This document shows positions 3 through 57,049 of a DNA stretch of 61,081 nucleotides, one piece after another. Below the pieces are notes generated by a model, which did no database searches, was not told the DNA's origin, and saw only the letters and a list, made by a program, of their open reading frames with translations. Made by a program: the position numbers and the translations under genes. Source of the stretch: Candidatus Woesearchaeota archaeon (GTDB taxonomy: Archaea; Nanobdellota; Nanobdellia; Woesearchaeales; GW2011-AR9); NCBI GenBank assembly GCA_018302605.1, contig JAGVZN010000010.1, forward strand, positions 3,932-65,012. Direction: 5' to 3'. The stretch's first letter is position 1; every line of letters begins with the position of its first letter.

Positions 3-98
3 AATCCTGATCTTCCAGAAAGTTTAAGAATATCTTTTGTTGGTGGGTCTTGGGACACTTTCATTCCTTTAGAACTACGTTTAGAGAAGTTTGAATAA
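3..98 (+). CDS. C-terminal end of an unidentified protein (partial)
   Basis: An open frame enters from the left edge and reads about 31 residues ending in LRLEKFE before a TAA stop. Composition looks protein-like (GGSWDTFIPLEL), but no family is recognised. The last six codons and the stop lie inside the R1 repeat that starts at base 80, so the repeat appears to supply the end of the protein. The 5' part is outside the window. Confidence 0.4.
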   Translation, partial: NPDLPESLRISFVGGSWDTFIPLELRLEKFE

Positions 99-205
99 TT
101 CAATTATTGATCTACAAACTTCTCAAGAGAATTTGAAATAGTCGTAATTTTGGTCTGAAATAAACAATCCATCTGCAAAATTACTATTTTTCAAACTTCT
201 CTTTA
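80..205. repeat. R1 hairpin element, copy A
   Basis: The ends form an inverted repeat, AGAGAAGTTTGAA on the left and TTCAAACTTCTCT on the right. Inside are two smaller hairpins: GAAGTTTG with CAAACTTC around an AATAATT/AATTATT stem, and GTAATTTTG (144-152) with CAAAATTAC (176-184). A second copy at 49499-49687 keeps both ends and both stems but carries 62 extra bases. It lies between the end of the partial gene and the secF promoter. Confidence 0.85.
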
Positions 206-253
206 GAATAAGATCTTTTGGGAGGGATTCTAGTCAATTTCTATTAGCACAAT

Positions 254-5242: not shown

Positions 5243-5444
5243 GTACGTATTAAGTCTGTGCCGGGGCAGGTCGGCCTGCCTCGTCTCGCTCAGAAGCAGA
5301 GATCAGTTGAACAGAAGAATTATTCTCGAAGATAAGCGAGAATCTAACTTTTAGTTCAATAGCAACGCTCGGCAGGCCATCTTGACCAAGCCCGCACAGA
5401 CTTAACTTAATACCAAGCCCGCACAGACTTAACTTAATACGTAT
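5243..5444. repeat. R2 hairpin element, copy A
   Basis: Left arm GTACGTATTAAGTCTGTGC, right arm GCACAGACTTAACTTAATAC followed by GTA. Stems nest inward: GGG/CCC, GGTC/GACC, GGCCTGCC/GGCAGGCC, with an unpaired ATCTT in the right arm, then inner hairpins such as ATTCTCG/CGAGAAT. A 27-base piece of the right arm is tandemly duplicated (5386-5412 and 5413-5439). Its right end contains the last codons and stop of the NAC gene. Other copies or parts are at 6002, 36768, 40391 and 46548. Confidence 0.85.
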
Positions 5445-10573: not shown

Positions 10574-10596
10574 AAACGCGGAGTATTCCACCACTC
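10574..10596 (+). repeat. R3 element, truncated copy
   Basis: AACGCGGAGTATTCCACC, followed by ACTC, is identical to the left end of the copies at 31687 and 55466. Here the right half is not recognisable; the rest of the gap to 10658 is AT-rich and shows nothing else. It lies after rfcS. Confidence 0.7.
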
Positions 10597-10658
10597 CCCA
10601 CATTACTAATAAATAAACAACTCTTTGTATAAATTATTTTGTCGTTTACTATAACTCC

Positions 10659-12904: not shown

Positions 12905-13062
12905 GTATTTGTTTAGCTTTTCCGGCAGGCCGCGCATCCGAGCGGAAATCTGCAAAAGTATTTTCTGCTTCTCGCTGTGAACCAGAAGATTTCCGCGCCA
13001 AGCTAGGAACAAAGTCTCTTCAGATGCGCGCATCTTGGCCTTGCCGCCAGCTAAACAAATAC
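12905..13062. repeat. R4 hairpin element, copy A
   Basis: Ends GTATTTGTTTAGCT and AGCTAAACAAATAC are perfect inverted repeats. Inside, GGCAGGCC/GGCC and GCGCATC/GATGCGC stems follow, with ATCTT unpaired in the right arm between them, and an inner perfect stem GCGGAAATCT/AGATTTCCGC. A shorter copy at 56943-57049 keeps the ends and the inner stem. It fills the gap between the ferredoxin and the next gene. Confidence 0.85.
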
Positions 13063-15307: not shown

Positions 15308-15470
15308 GGCACTGTAGAAAAAGTCGTCCGTCTGGCCTGAAGATTGACCGTGATAAGCGATCTGCTGGAACAGGTGTGAAAAAGATAAGATTGACTGGCT
15401 GGTTCTGCAACCACGAACACAACTGGTTTTCGCCACGGTCAATGACTATGACGACTTTTTCTATATCGCC
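15308..15470. mobile_element. R5 MITE-like element, copy A, with direct repeats
   Basis: The ends are GGC ... GCC, with GTAGAAAAAGTCGTC and GACGACTTTTTCTAT as terminal inverted repeats (14 of 15 match), then an inner perfect stem TTGACCGTG/CACGGTCAA. CTATTTTTA lies on both sides (15299-15307 and 15471-15479), a likely 9-bp target duplication. The left end resembles 40233-40384 (GGCTCTGTC, AAAAAGTC, CTGGCC). It has no coding capacity. It accounts for most of the gap 15280-15480. Confidence 0.82.
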
Positions 15471-31686: not shown

Positions 31687-31757
31687 AAACGCGGAGTATT
31701 CCACCACTCTCCACAGTGAAAAGAATATTTCACTGGGACACTAATTGGAATACGCTC
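31687..31757. repeat. R3 hairpin element, second copy
   Basis: It starts AACGCGGAGTATTCCACC like the copies at 10574 and 55466 and ends TTGGAATACGCTC, an inverted repeat of the start. Inside, CAGTGAAA/TTTCACTG forms a hairpin. ACG borders both the start (31689-31691) and the GGAAT near the right end (31752-31754), matching the ACG duplication at 55466, but this may be chance. It lies 8 bases after the secY stop. Confidence 0.7.
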
Positions 31758-40232: not shown

Positions 40233-40384
40233 GGCTCTGTCAAAAAAGTCAGCCGCCTGGCCAAGAGGTTGCCTGAGAACTGCAATCTCCCCAAGTTATT
40301 GGTGCTTCTTGGCTGTAATCTAAGCAGCTGGAGAAGCATGAAGGCAACGGCCAGGCTGACTTTTTTGAGATTTTCTACAGAGCC
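40233..40384. mobile_element. R5 MITE-like element, copy B
   Basis: GGCTCTGT/ACAGAGCC ends, then AAAAAAGTCAGCC/GGCTGACTTTTTT and CTGGCC/GGCCAG stems. The left end matches 15308 at most positions. No clear direct repeat flanks it, possibly because R2 copy B begins six bases to its right. No coding frame. Confidence 0.75.
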
Positions 40385-40390
40385 CACATC

Positions 40391-40566
40391 GTACGTATTA
40401 AGTCTATGCTTGGACAAGTCGGCCTGCCTCGTCTCGTCCAGAAGCAGAGAGCAGTTGAACTGAAGAGTTATTCTCAGAGATCGGCGAGACTCTGAATTTC
40501 TTGTTCAAAGCCACCGCTCGGCAGGCCATCTTGACCTAGCCCGCACAGACATAACTTAATGCGTAC
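40391..40566. repeat. R2 hairpin element, copy B
   Basis: GTACGTATTAAGTCTATGC on the left and GCACAGACATAACTTAATGC plus GTAC on the right. It keeps GGCCTGCC/GGCAGGCC and the right-arm ATCTTGACC; inner stems differ from copy A by several paired changes (TTCTC region). With R5 copy B it fills the gap 40194-40580; a TATA box (TTTTTATAG near 40578) for the next gene follows. Confidence 0.85.
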
Positions 40567-46538: not shown

Positions 46539-46547
46539 TCGTCGCGG

Positions 46548-46570
46548 TACAGACTTAACTTAATACATAC
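46548..46570 (+). repeat. R2 end fragment
   Basis: GTACAGACTTAACTTAATAC followed by ATAC is the right terminal arm of R2 alone. It lies 10 bases after the GH3 stop and directly before the AAAAAAGC repeats of R8. Confidence 0.7.
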
Positions 46571-46578
46571 AAAAAAGC

Positions 46579-46743
46579 GGCACAATCCATTTTGTGAGTG
46601 ATGGTGAGCCGTCGCTGAAGCCAATTTTAAGAAATTTCAGAGATACAGAAGAAAATTGGCCCAGTTCCAGTATTATTTCCAGTATTATAGCTATCCTTCA
46701 GCGACCATTTGGCGTCACCATCACTCACTTTTCGGATTGTGCC
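46579..46743. mobile_element. R8a MITE-like element flanked by AAAAAAGC
   Basis: GGCACAATCC ... GGATTGTGCC ends, then GTGAGTGATGGTGA/TCACCATCACTCAC and GTCGCTGAAG/CTTCAGCGAC stems, and an inner CCAATTTT/AAAATTGG stem. AAAAAAGC lies at 46571-46578 and 46744-46751, an 8-bp direct repeat. The ends resemble those of R7. No coding frame. Confidence 0.85.
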
Positions 46744-46751
46744 AAAAAAGC

Positions 46752-46915
46752 GGCTAATATGAAACCCTCTCGCGTTGCTTGGTTACTGCCAGCTCCGCAC
46801 TTGCTGTAGAACACAATCAGCGACGTTCCCCGTAGGGGGCAACCCCTTTGTCGCTTTGATATTTCTATCGAGAATGCTCCGCAAAGGGCAGTAACTACAG
46901 GGTTTCATATTAGCC
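46752..46915. mobile_element. R8b MITE-like element flanked by AAAAAAGC
   Basis: GGCTAATATGAAACCCT ... AGGGTTTCATATTAGCC are perfect 17-base terminal repeats; inner stems include TTACTGCC/GGGCAGTAA and AGCGAC/GTCGCT. The same AAAAAAGC precedes (46744-46751) and follows (46917-46924). Different sequence from R8a, same target. With R8a it fills the gap before S3Ae. Confidence 0.85.
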
Positions 46916-47004
46916 CAAAAAAGCGACATCTTTTTAAAGGAATCACTGCTTTAGCAGGAACGGGTATCTATAAAATAACTACATCCGGGCTTATCCAAGA
47001 CAAC

Positions 47005-47793
47005 ATGACAAAAGCAACCGACAAAAAACAAGTAAGCAGAGTTAAAACCAAGAAAAAATCTTGGTTTAGAGTTATCGCTCCTCCTTTCTTCGGGCAGCTG
47101 CAGATCGGGGAAACATATGTCGAAAATCCGGAAACTATTCTGGGGCGAAAGATAGACGTCAATCTCAAAGAATTGACGAATAACATCAAAGACCAGAGTG
47201 CTTATGTTTCTTTTCGGATGATCAGTGCAGAAGGAGCACAGGTTCATACCGAGCCGATGGGTTTTTATCTCACACCCTCTCATGTTAAGCGCCTTGTTCG
47301 AAAGAGTACGTCGCGCTTGGATGATTATTTTGTTTTTTCGACAAAAGCGGGAGAGCGTGTCATTATCAAGACGATTATGGTTACCAGATCCAAAATCCAG
47401 CGTTCGGTGAGGACAGCGCTCAGTTCAACATTGCGTTCCCTTCTTCAGGAGGAGTTCCAAAAGACGGATTTCAACGGCTTCCTTTCGTTATTGATCGGCG
47501 GACGTCTGCGTAAAACATTATTTGCATTGAACAAGATCAGCCCTCTCCGCGAAGCGGCGGTCCGGGTTGCTTCACTTCAAGTGAAAAAAGATGGTCAGCG
47601 CATAACTGCAGAAACTTCCTCCGCGCTGGCTGCTGAAGAAATGCCGGCAGCTGACGAGAACACGGAGGATCAAGCTGAAGATGCCTTTGTTGAGGAACCG
47701 GAAGAGGCCGCCGAGGAAGAAGCTGCTGAGGTGGAGGCCATAGTTGAAAGTGCTGATGGCGAACAATCCAACGACGAAGAAGGAACAGCATAA
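47005..47793 (+). CDS. rps3ae: Small ribosomal subunit protein S3Ae (eS1)
   Basis: 262 residues. KKSWFRVIAPPFFGQLQIGETYVENPETILGRKIDVNLKELT, HVKRLVRKSTSRLDDYF and the IMVTRSKIQRSVRTALSSTLRSLLQEEF helix are diagnostic of S3Ae. The last ~55 residues are a very acidic Ala/Glu tail. It sits on the platform near the mRNA exit. TCTATAAAAT (46968-46977) is the TATA box. Confidence 0.95.
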   Translation: MTKATDKKQVSRVKTKKKSWFRVIAPPFFGQLQIGETYVENPETILGRKIDVNLKELTNNIKDQSAYVSFRMISAEGAQVHTEPMGFYLTPSHVKRLVRKSTSRLDDYFVFSTKAGERVIIKTIMVTRSKIQRSVRTALSSTLRSLLQEEFQKTDFNGFLSLLIGGRLRKTLFALNKISPLREAAVRVASLQVKKDGQRITAETSSALAAEEMPAADENTEDQAEDAFVEEPEEAAEEEAAEVEAIVESADGEQSNDEEGTA

Positions 47794-48462: not shown

Positions 48463-49503
48463 ATGGCTTTAACCACTCCATTTACTTCTCTTCCCGGCCT
48501 AATCTTGTCGGATCTTGCGGAAATCAAGAAGAAAGATGCGCTGTTTAAAGAAGTGAAGAGACGGTTAAAAAAAAATTATCCCGTCAAAAAAGTTGCCAAT
48601 CTCCAGAAGAAATATCTCAAAAAGCCAGAATCGTTTCAGGCAGAATTTGCTCGTCTTGTCGATGATTTTGTCAAAGATTATACCTTCTTCCGAGAAGCGT
48701 ATGGTTCTTTATTGAGAGCAATTATTGAGACGTTGAATGTGGCAGAGAAGAGTGAATACAATGAATTGTTATCGATAGAGGAGATCATTCTGAAGATTGA
48801 AGCACGAGCAAAAGAAAAAGGGGGGGAGTTCTATTTTCCGGAAGCGGGAAAGAAACAGTTTGCCAAAGCATTTCGCGGGGCGATGCGCGATCTGGCTGCT
48901 CAATTGAAAATGGAATATGATACTCTTTCGGGGTTAGCGCGGGGAAAACGGACTGCTGCCGGCTTCTTCTCTCGGTTTGTGAATGCTCGTTCAGCTGAAC
49001 GTAAAGGGATGCGTGCTGCGGGAAAATTACGCGGACAGATTGACCATACTCAGGTAGTGCTGAAGCATCTTGAATTGGAGCTGCAACAAGGAGTACAGCA
49101 GGATTTTCTTCTGCTGATGCTGCAATTTGTGGCCGAAGTAGCGAAGACAGATGAATTGTATCGGCAATTAAAGAAAGATCTGGAAATTCTGATCCAAGAC
49201 ATCCGTAATGAAGTAGAAGATGTCGTGCTGAAGATTGCCCCGTTCATCGCCCTGATTCAAAATGATCGGCGGGCTATGGAAAGAATTGCGGCAGCGCGGG
49301 CGGCATTTGTGAAAATGCAGGAACAAATCGTTGCCGCGCTGGAAAAAGAAAAATCGTGGCCGAAATATGATGAAGCAACTCTGCGGAGGATAATGCGGAG
49401 CGATCTTATCTTATTGGCAACATTACGGGGTATTTCTCAAAGAGCAGTACAAGGCATTGTTGCTGATGTCGTGCATCGGGAATTAGGGACTCAGCAGGTT
49501 TAG
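48463..49503 (+). CDS. Helical protein, unknown function
   Basis: 346 residues, predicted helical throughout with likely coiled coils (about 10-55, 200-260, 265-300). No family recognised. The ATG giving MALTTPF is 26 bases after ATTTTTATATAG, so leaderless; the longer frame from 48445 is less likely. Its TAG stop (49501-49503) is the first part of the R1 element, so the insertion may define the C-terminus. Confidence 0.75.
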   Translation: MALTTPFTSLPGLILSDLAEIKKKDALFKEVKRRLKKNYPVKKVANLQKKYLKKPESFQAEFARLVDDFVKDYTFFREAYGSLLRAIIETLNVAEKSEYNELLSIEEIILKIEARAKEKGGEFYFPEAGKKQFAKAFRGAMRDLAAQLKMEYDTLSGLARGKRTAAGFFSRFVNARSAERKGMRAAGKLRGQIDHTQVVLKHLELELQQGVQQDFLLLMLQFVAEVAKTDELYRQLKKDLEILIQDIRNEVEDVVLKIAPFIALIQNDRRAMERIAAARAAFVKMQEQIVAALEKEKSWPKYDEATLRRIMRSDLILLATLRGISQRAVQGIVADVVHRELGTQQV

Positions 49504-49687
49504 AGAAGTTTGAATAATTCAATTATTTGTCTACAAACTTCATGAAAAATGAAAACTATCATTTTTCAGAACCAAAAACAAATCGTCGTTTGTTTTTGTG
49601 TTCTCAAGAGAATTTGAAACGGGCGTAATTTTGGCATGAAACCAGCGATTTATTCGCCAAAATTACTCTTTTTCAAACTTCTCTTTA
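49499..49687. repeat. R1 hairpin element, copy B
   Basis: Same ends and two core hairpins as 80-205 (GTAATTTTGG/CCAAAATTAC here), plus 62 extra bases (49542-49603) that fold into two perfect hairpins: TGAAAAATGA/TCATTTTTCA and CAAAAACAAA/TTTGTTTTTG. It lies exactly between the stops of two convergent genes and begins at the stop codon of the first. Confidence 0.88.
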
Positions 49688-51915: not shown

Positions 51916-52009
51916 GAGATAATTCGGAGGTGTATAGTCGTCCAACTTCGTTTGACAAGAAAATTCCCTCACACGCTGATGAGTGAAACTAAATACCTAC
52001 TCGATTAAA

Positions 52010-52245
52010 GCACAATTCAAAAAGTAAGTGATATAGTAAACTGCGCAATTATCTGTAATATCAACCAACGAGAGAGTGCTGCCGGCCGTTCGGTCTGGCG
52101 AAAACCAGAAGGGGAACGCTGCTTCTCGAAGAGTCGTGATCAACGGATAGTTTTCGCTCCAACATCTTTAGTGGAAAGCACTTCAGACCGAACATCTTGG
52201 CCAAGCAGCACTCTCCGGCGCTATCACTCCCAAAAAGGATTGTGC
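52010..52245. repeat. R7 hairpin element
   Basis: Outer ends GCACAATT and GGATTGTGC, then AGTGATATAG/CTATCACT, then a core hairpin (52072-52215): GAGAGTG/CACTCTC, CTG/CAG, GGCC/GGCC, GTTCGGTCT/AGACCGAAC with ATCTT unpaired in the right arm and AAG facing CC, and an inner GCGAAAAC/GTTTTCGC. The outer ends resemble R8a. No coding frame. Confidence 0.8.
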
Positions 52246-52292
52246 CTCCATTCAGAACATTTTAAATATCTTCTTTGTTTCTTCCAATACTG

Positions 52293-52997: not shown

Positions 52998-53171
52998 GGC
53001 TTTGTGTAAAAAGTGCTGCTCCGCAGGTTGTGCCGTGCCCAGCGCCGCTGTTCGGATTGTTGTTTGGACAAAGATTCGCTATGTTTACGTTCAACAGCGG
53101 ACAGTAACTTTGTCTTACGAATCGTAGTTCGCTGTGCACCTCTTGGCACAACATACTTTTTACACAAAGCC
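52998..53171. mobile_element. R6 MITE-like element with perfect ends and direct repeats
   Basis: Perfect 16-base terminal repeats GCTTTGTGTAAAAAGT/ACTTTTTACACAAAGC inside GGC...GCC ends. TCCGAATGA flanks both sides (52989-52997 and 53172-53180). Inner stems GTTGTGCC/GGCACAAC, CCGCTGTT/AACAGCGG, GACAAAG/CTTTGTC and GATTCG/CGAATC nest toward the centre. It lies between two paralogous membrane genes. No coding frame. Confidence 0.88.
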
Positions 53172-54993: not shown

Positions 54994-55468
54994 TATTCCT
55001 TCTCCTAAAGCTGAACCGTTTAAGCTTTGGCTGGCAAGAGTTGGTTACGAGAGAGTTCAAGAGATTGAGAATCCAGAATTAGCCCAGAAACGGATGAGAG
55101 AACTGTACAAAGAAAAAGGCTATTCGGAAAGCTGGATTGAAAGGAGAATAAGGGGGGTCGTCATCCGAGATGAATTAACAGATGAATGGAAGAAGAGAGA
55201 TGTAGGTGCAGAAAAAGAGTATGCACTCCTTACTGCCGAGATATCAAAAGCAACTTTCAGCATAACTCCTCGCGAATATAAAGAATTCAAAGGCTTAAAG
55301 AAAGAAAATCTCGGAGATCATATGGATGATCTTGAACTCATCTTTACCATGCTTGGAGAAAAGGTTACGACTGAGATCACCAAAAAAGAAGATGCTCGGG
55401 GGATTGTCGAAAACAAAGATGCTGCTCAAAGGGGGGGGAAAGTAGCCGGAAAAGCGAGAGTTGAAACG

Positions 55469-55617
55469 CGGAGTATTCCACCACTCTTTCGAGTGGTGGT
55501 TTGCAAGCAAACCACTTATTTATCAGTGGAATACTTGCGTGCTCAAAATTAGGCAGGGGTGAGCGAAGCGAACATGCCACCGGTCTATTTGACCGGTGGT
55601 ACCCTGCCTATTTTGAC
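55469..55617. mobile_element. R3 element inserted in the BRO/DinD gene
   Basis: 149 bases. Left hairpin: GGAGTATTCCAC/GTGGAATACTTGC with inner CCACCACTC/GAGTGGTGG and GGTTTGC/GCAAACC. Right hairpin: GTGCTCAAAAT/ATTTTGACAC with AGGCAGGG/CCCTGCCT and CCACCGGTC/GACCGGTGG. ACG is duplicated at both borders (55466-55468, 55618-55620). Removal restores KARVETEKELGQS. The left end matches 10574 and 31687. Confidence 0.88.
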
Positions 55618-56942: not shown

Positions 56943-57049
56943 GTATTTGTTTAGCTTCTCCGGCAGGCCGTGCATCCGAGCGGAAATATGCAAAGATATT
57001 TTCTGCTTTTCGCTGTGAAACAAAAGATTTCCGCACCAAAAACAAATAC
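56943..57049. repeat. R4 hairpin element, copy B (shortened)
   Basis: GTATTTGTTTAGCT at the left and AAACAAATAC at the right, with GGCAGGCCGTGCATCC and the inner GCGGAAAT/ATTTCCGC stem kept. The right-arm segment holding ATCTTGGCC is deleted. Confidence 0.8.

Follow-up and report, generated by a model that had tools for sequence, protein, structure and literature searches.

Probable serial insertion of two unrelated miniature transposons at the upstream edge of a candidate archaeal core promoter

Transposons that are aimed at promoters are known in bacteria and yeast. Elements of the TnGBS/ISLre2 (p-MULT 3) and ISKra4 (p-MULT 4) groups are inserted 15–17 bp upstream of bacterial sigmaA promoters, and their contact with the initiation complex has been proposed by analogy with the Ty3–TFIIIB system (Guerillot et al. 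2014, PMC3942029). A C/D(2)H motif that closely follows the second catalytic Asp is a mark of p-MULT enzymes, and the archaeal Mutator-like insertion sequence ISH6 (p-MULT 2) is suspected to favor AT-rich promoter regions (PMC3942029). In the open-access literature we found no description of promoter-aimed insertion sequences or transposons from archaea, the closest account being the same study (PMC3942029). This is not proof of novelty; the archaeal BRE/TATA case presented here is apparently new within that literature.

The window analyzed here is a stretch of 61,081 nucleotides from a Candidatus Woesearchaeota archaeon, the genome of which (G000) is 1.16 Mb in 32 contigs and about 90% complete. 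Like the TnGBS/ISLre2 and ISKra4-group transposons, the elements in this genome are DDE elements at a fixed promoter distance that leave the promoter intact. They differ in that they lie at archaeal BRE/TATA sequences instead of sigmaA promoters, come from unrelated families that include an IS5-type one instead of the Mutator superfamily only, and are miniature elements that are repeatedly stacked (PMC3942029). They may work like the TnGBS group, membership in which would rest, beyond promoter phasing, on analogy.

Other described systems share part of this pattern. As with yeast Ty3 and TFIIIB, integration would here be set by a complex of TBP and a TFIIB-like factor at the promoter; as far as that study describes it, Ty3 uses a retroelement integrase near the start site of Pol III genes, whereas the present elements are cut-and-paste DNA elements upstream of the BRE (PMC3942029). 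ISH6 duplicates the AT-rich motif itself (AANATNTT; PMC3942029), whereas in the present elements the duplication does not include the TATA box, which follows at a fixed 6 bp. The IS5 family is matched by one autonomous relative (L146) in its PF01609 DDE domain, NCBIfam IS5_2 score above the cut-off, length of about 1 kb, and 9-bp duplication; unlike that family, the related b-type elements are promoter-phased. The Correia elements of Neisseria are likewise short, non-coding inverted-repeat elements upstream of genes that are sometimes clustered, but a base-exact promoter phase, which is present here, is not mentioned for them in the excerpted account (PMC10969869).

Elements a and b and their repeated target

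The initial annotation of this site reported that the motif AAAAAAGC occurs before, between, and after two different elements, and this is what the borders show (46571–46578, 46744–46751, and 46917–46924; Table 1). From left to right, the layers are a family-c remnant, AAAAAAGC, a, AAAAAAGC, b, CAAAAAAGC, GACATC, TTTTTAAA, and a gene, so that the relevant unit of the a/b site reaches rightward to the BRE and TATA positions at 46925–46938. The c remnant adjoins the first AAAAAAGC copy directly and is the same end that full c copies have at 5243–5443 and elsewhere. The inverted repeats are 29 nt long and 83% identical in a, and 17 nt long and 100% identical in b. Since the duplications of b are 9 bp long, the last target copy has 9 bp rather than 8; the C at its start repeats the base with which a ends, and C46743 plus the second copy constitute the 9-bp left duplication of b.

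Table 1. Features of the eS1 site and of other insertions in the window
Feature	Position	Strand	Remarks
Family-c end remnant	46547–46570	-	Reads GTATGTATTAAGTTAAGTCTGTAC on minus strand; outermost stack layer
Target copy 1, AAAAAAGC	46571–46578		Left duplication of a
Element a, 165 bp, non-autonomous	46579–46743	+	Inverted ends GGCACAATCC...GGATTGTGCC
Target copy 2, AAAAAAGC	46744–46751		Right duplication of a
Element b, 164 bp, non-autonomous	46752–46915	+	Perfect 17-bp inverted ends GGCTAATATGAAACCCT
Target copy 3, CAAAAAAGC	46916–46924		9-bp right duplication of b
BRE position, GACATC	46925–46930	+	Between target and TATA; conserved in same-genus genome G002
TATA box TTTTTAAA	46931–46938	+	Starts exactly 6 bp beyond target duplication
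Presumed ribosomal protein eS1 (S3Ae) gene, 262-aa ORF	47005–47793	+	Downstream of targeted promoter
Second a-type element	52009–52246	+	c-type end adjoins left; phased BRE/TATA GAACAT-TTTAAATA right
Family-d element, GGCTTTGTGTAAAAAGT ends	52998–53171	+	9-bp duplication TCCGAATGA, phased TATA TTTAAATA
Family-e element, GGC-TGTAGAAAAAGTC ends	15308–15470	+	9-bp duplication CTATTTTTA, phased TATA TTTATAAA
Family-c element, GTACGTATTAAGTCTG ends	5243–5443	+	8-bp duplication TGTTAGTT
Another stack: e-like (40233–40384), then c (40391 to about 40566)	40233–40566	+	

Base composition had been named as a possible cause of the repeated motif. The bare 8-mer is indeed common, with 12 matches in the window versus 8.4 expected in shuffles, but composition was rejected as the cause of its placement, which is not due to chance because the copies are flush with the exact borders of two recurring inverted-repeat elements and because other copies of these elements carry their own, different duplications.

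The ORF downstream, which we take from its protein sequence to encode ribosomal protein eS1, has homologs in 32 of 34 relatives. Genome G002 is from the same genus, and its eS1 protein is 67% identical; there, CGACATCTTTTTAAAGG is conserved upstream of the gene, and this conservation supports the prediction of a functional core promoter at eS1. The window TATA box is TTTTTAAA with GACATC in the BRE position and so lacks the AA of the BRE consensus; the phased box is a candidate promoter, and another TATA-like site, TCTATAAAAT, lies closer to the eS1 start codon. The single-insert alleles that the annotation had proposed to seek were not recovered: among the related genomes, no single-insert or empty allele of the exact eS1 locus was found, and G002 carries a degraded b-like end (GGGTTTTAGATTAGCC) at the same point upstream of eS1.

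Both a and b have the features of MITEs, being short, noncoding, and multicopy, with terminal inverted repeats and target duplications. The genome contains five other near-full copies of a and dozens of related ends, the best of these copies being 85–92% identical to the window element and flanked by 8-bp target duplications; those seen at other a copies are CGATTTCC, GCTGGTTA, GTAATCGG, and TATTTGGC. Element b is present in full at two further sites, in copies that are 99 and 96% identical and have 9-bp target duplications: one is flanked by AAGAGTAGC and the remaining one by GTGGGAAAA/GTGGAAAA, from which one G has apparently been lost. Repeats of 8–9 bp, which the annotation had proposed to look for at other GGC...GCC elements, are present at further copies of a (8 bp) and b (9 bp) and at family e (GGC-TGTAGAAAAAGTC ends, 9 bp). 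Across related genomes, the duplication is 8 bp at a-type ends and 9 bp at b-type ends, and in many genera each kind of end is conserved independently of the other, with variable interiors.

These genomes are fragmented metagenome assemblies in which repeats break contigs. In G019, G239, and G347, many contigs begin roughly 65–215 bp from a b-type end, so b-type elements probably break assemblies and their copy numbers are underestimated.

Several further repeats were observed. A hairpin-like stretch inside b (GCGACGTTCCCCGTAGGGGGCAACCCCTTTGTCGC, window about 46817–46851) recurs apart from b ends in other genera (G023, G031, G004, G008, and G053), and b may carry it as an older nested repeat. 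Four a-type elements (L025, L030, L032, and L035) are interrupted at an internal point by other elements (GTAACGAAAACTCGCC..., AACTCCGCACTTTGTGCGGAGCC...), which form another nested family. The insert in L032 contains the complement of AAACGCGGAGTATTCCACCACTC, a repeat with three window copies (10574–10602, 31687–31715, and 55464–55492). Another repeat family (GTTTAGAGAAGTTTGAATAAT ... TTTTTCAAACTTCTCTTTA) is present at window positions 79–208 and 49498–49687, with related ends in L012 and L025.

The ends of a and b are matched by different transposase-encoding elements, all of them (L105, L120, L127, and L146) in other genera than that of the window. For a, these are L105, at both ends, and L127 and L120, at one end each. 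L105, a 1401-bp element bounded by a-type ends and flanked by an 8-bp duplication, encodes a DDE-like transposase that has an internal deletion; in L120 and L127, a-type ends are found next to members of this transposase family. The L127 copy, which matches a genome of the same order as the window (G246), is truncated. The L105 and L127 proteins have no Pfam or NCBIfam match over the cut-off; a distant homolog of the L127 protein (L123) matches IS66 at 4e-5, just over the cut-off, and Mutator at 3e-4, below it. L127 also has the C(2)H motif of prokaryotic Mutator-like enzymes (IITD...QKCLLHLNK); its catalytic Asp, Asp, and Glu are candidates chosen by eye only, and its structure model has a mean pLDDT of 42.5, too low to use. 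These features hint that the a-type transposase may be a divergent Mutator/IS66-like DDE enzyme. The b ends are matched by L146, a 1019-bp autonomous element that encodes a 305-aa IS5-family transposase (PF01609, E=9e-14; NF033579 IS5_2, 145 bits versus a cut-off of 140) and has a 9-bp duplication, AAATAGAAG, read from its flanks.

In the window's own genome, at about 90% completeness, neither a protein search for the a transposase nor a search through b ends for the b transposase found one. An IS1595-type transposase (PF12762) was looked for in the same genome and not found, and viral contigs contained no relatives of the a and b transposases.

Position of insertions relative to the BRE and TATA box

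Unique flanks were scanned outward from the element ends for TTTAWAWA at 7/8 or better, with flanks from related genomes de-duplicated by sequence only. A TATA start was found 14 bp from the element end in 37 of 115 a flanks (P about 1e-46) and 15 bp from it in 22 of 61 b flanks (P about 1e-24), each against a background of about 1%. Both peaks are a single base wide; other distances mostly had 0–4 matches for a and 0–7 for b, with a shoulder 1–2 bp past the b peak. Because a duplicates 8 bp and b duplicates 9 bp, both peaks fall 6 bp beyond the duplication.

Since every insertion has two flanks, only one of which needs a promoter, matches were also counted per element. Among elements with a target duplication, a phased TATA box (6/8 or better) was present in 27 of 31 a elements and all 11 b elements, compared with means of 2.8 (a) and 1.1 (b) at other offsets. 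Each of the four a exceptions (window a, L028, L032, and L039) has another element on one flank, and tracing of two of them placed the promoter on the other side of that neighbor, which is b for window a and c for L028. These counts show that a and b are inserted at one fixed position relative to the TATA box.

The six bases between the duplication and the TATA box read GAAAnn, the archaeal BRE, in the direction of the gene, and the strong flank logo is confined to BRE and TATA, the duplication itself having no strong motif. The BRE core AA is present at 77 of 99 targeted TATA boxes; among window sites, the corresponding counts are 20 of 87 for promoter-like ones and 17 of 144 for other TATA-like ones. 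T is enriched 18–19 bp after the TATA start (0.55 and 0.68), at about -12/-11. An ORF of at least 80 codons starts 20–110 bp downstream of 69 of 86 TATA-side flanks, compared with 79 of the 194 remaining flanks (P 5.5e-10, odds ratio 5.9). An early reading in which the TATA box pointed into the element was rejected, as both the BRE logo and the ORF starts indicate a gene on the side away from the element. The common target of a and b at eS1 follows from this preference, since both favor, base-exactly, the upstream edge of archaeal core promoters.

Three further families in the same genome have the same phase as a and b: c peaks at 14 bp (17/56 flanks; 38 genome matches), e at 15 bp (18/64), and d at 15 bp (5/15). 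A repeat that was considered as a sixth promoter-aimed family, D2, is equally numerous in this genome and was rejected as not phased (4/71). D2 (ends GTATTTGTTTAGCT; window 12905–13062 and 56943–57039) has 46 genome matches and 8-bp duplications and serves as an internal control.

Stacking is repeated. At 14 distinct sites in this genome, including that at eS1 and leaving out one spurious match, the end of another element lies exactly one duplication away. In the stack at 40233, the phased TATA box TTTTTATA lies on the right, after CACTCGTC-GCAAGA. At the c copy at 5243–5443, a phased TATA-like TTTTTATA lies on the left, in minus-strand direction, and at the a-type element at 52009 the target copies (TCGATTAA/TCCATTCA) match in only 6 of 8 positions. 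Contig C12 of the same genome contains the string TATA, GCTGGTTA, c, GCTGGTTA, a, GCTGGTTA, which is an independent replicate of the repeated-target pattern in the window. The exact borders, the separate duplications of other copies, and this replicate bear out the proposal in the annotation of serial insertion into a duplicated target.

Order of insertion and the targeting mechanism

Based on these results, we consider it very probable that a and b are unrelated non-autonomous transposons, each with its own transposase, that were serially inserted at the BRE edge of the eS1 promoter because several families aim there. Each insertion would duplicate the 8 or 9 bp adjoining the BRE, with no damage to BRE, TATA box, or start site. 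As the promoter-side target is thereby regenerated, the site could be struck again, which would give rise to stacks with the youngest member nearest the TATA box. For the eS1 site, we infer the order c, then a, then b. The additional C in target copy 3, the last base of a duplicated in the 9-bp copy of b, indicates that b was inserted after a. Because the c end (...CATAC) could also have supplied this C, the order is based on the distance rule, on the higher identity of b to its sister copy (99%, versus 92% for a), and on the fact that c is truncated.

As for what sets the position, the phasing slightly favors a mechanism in which TBP/TFB, bound at the TATA box and BRE, serves as the docking site of the integration complex. 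Docking would fix the strand cut on the TATA-proximal side at 6 bp upstream of that box, and the transposase would set the other cut 8 or 9 bp further out. A fixed TATA-proximal cut with a variable distal cut, common to unrelated enzymes, fits a complex placed against the upstream edge of the TFB footprint. It is, in our view, an even chance that the IS5-type, the Mutator/IS66-like, and three more families all use the promoter-bound TBP/TFB complex as a docking site and cut at the upstream edge of that complex; this would be an archaeal counterpart of Ty3–TFIIIB targeting, spanning transposase superfamilies and stacking elements at promoters.

Transposases with a sequence preference are common, and the main alternative to docking is that each enzyme here reads the BRE/TATA DNA itself (e.g. 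GAAAnnTTTAWAWA or its bendability) with no host factor, as a convergent preference. This would leave the same pattern as docking, and it agrees with a strong flank logo limited to BRE and TATA. However, this preference and its distance would have to be identical in unrelated enzymes (IS5-type and Mutator/IS66-like) and in five families; the TATA-proximal cut is fixed although duplication length differs; and a BRE accompanies targeted TATA boxes much more frequently than it does other TATA-like sites, the targeted boxes usually preceding genes. We therefore view direct reading as possible but rather doubtful. Very improbable is random intergenic insertion with selection retaining only promoter-sparing copies: insertion just upstream of the BRE does spare the promoter, and most insertions are between genes, but selection could not attain a one-base peak when offsets 7–40 beyond the duplication, which are equally harmless, have 0–2 matches each in a, and D2 in the same genome is not phased.

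The annotation had also suggested one transposase acting on several end sequences, and a and b do both end in GGC...GCC at a common target, with families d and e having GGCTCTGT-like ends. The 8- versus 9-bp duplications, the separately conserved ends, and the different transposases found with them (L105/L120/L127 versus L146) argue against this suggestion, to which we give slightly less credence than to selection. That a and b, being adjacent, moved together as one composite element is barely conceivable and was rejected: other a copies stand alone or beside other families, other b copies have no a, and there is no second a–b pair. Of these readings, serial insertion by separate systems aimed at the core promoter is the one that we prefer.

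The use of the same strategy at archaeal BRE/TATA promoters, with base precision and by several unrelated families, points to a docking platform of the host that the families share. In addition, the insertions can serve as markers of core promoters, as the edge of an element gives the position and direction of the BRE and TATA box in uncultured archaea that lack transcript maps, and the stacks give the relative order of insertion events at one promoter.
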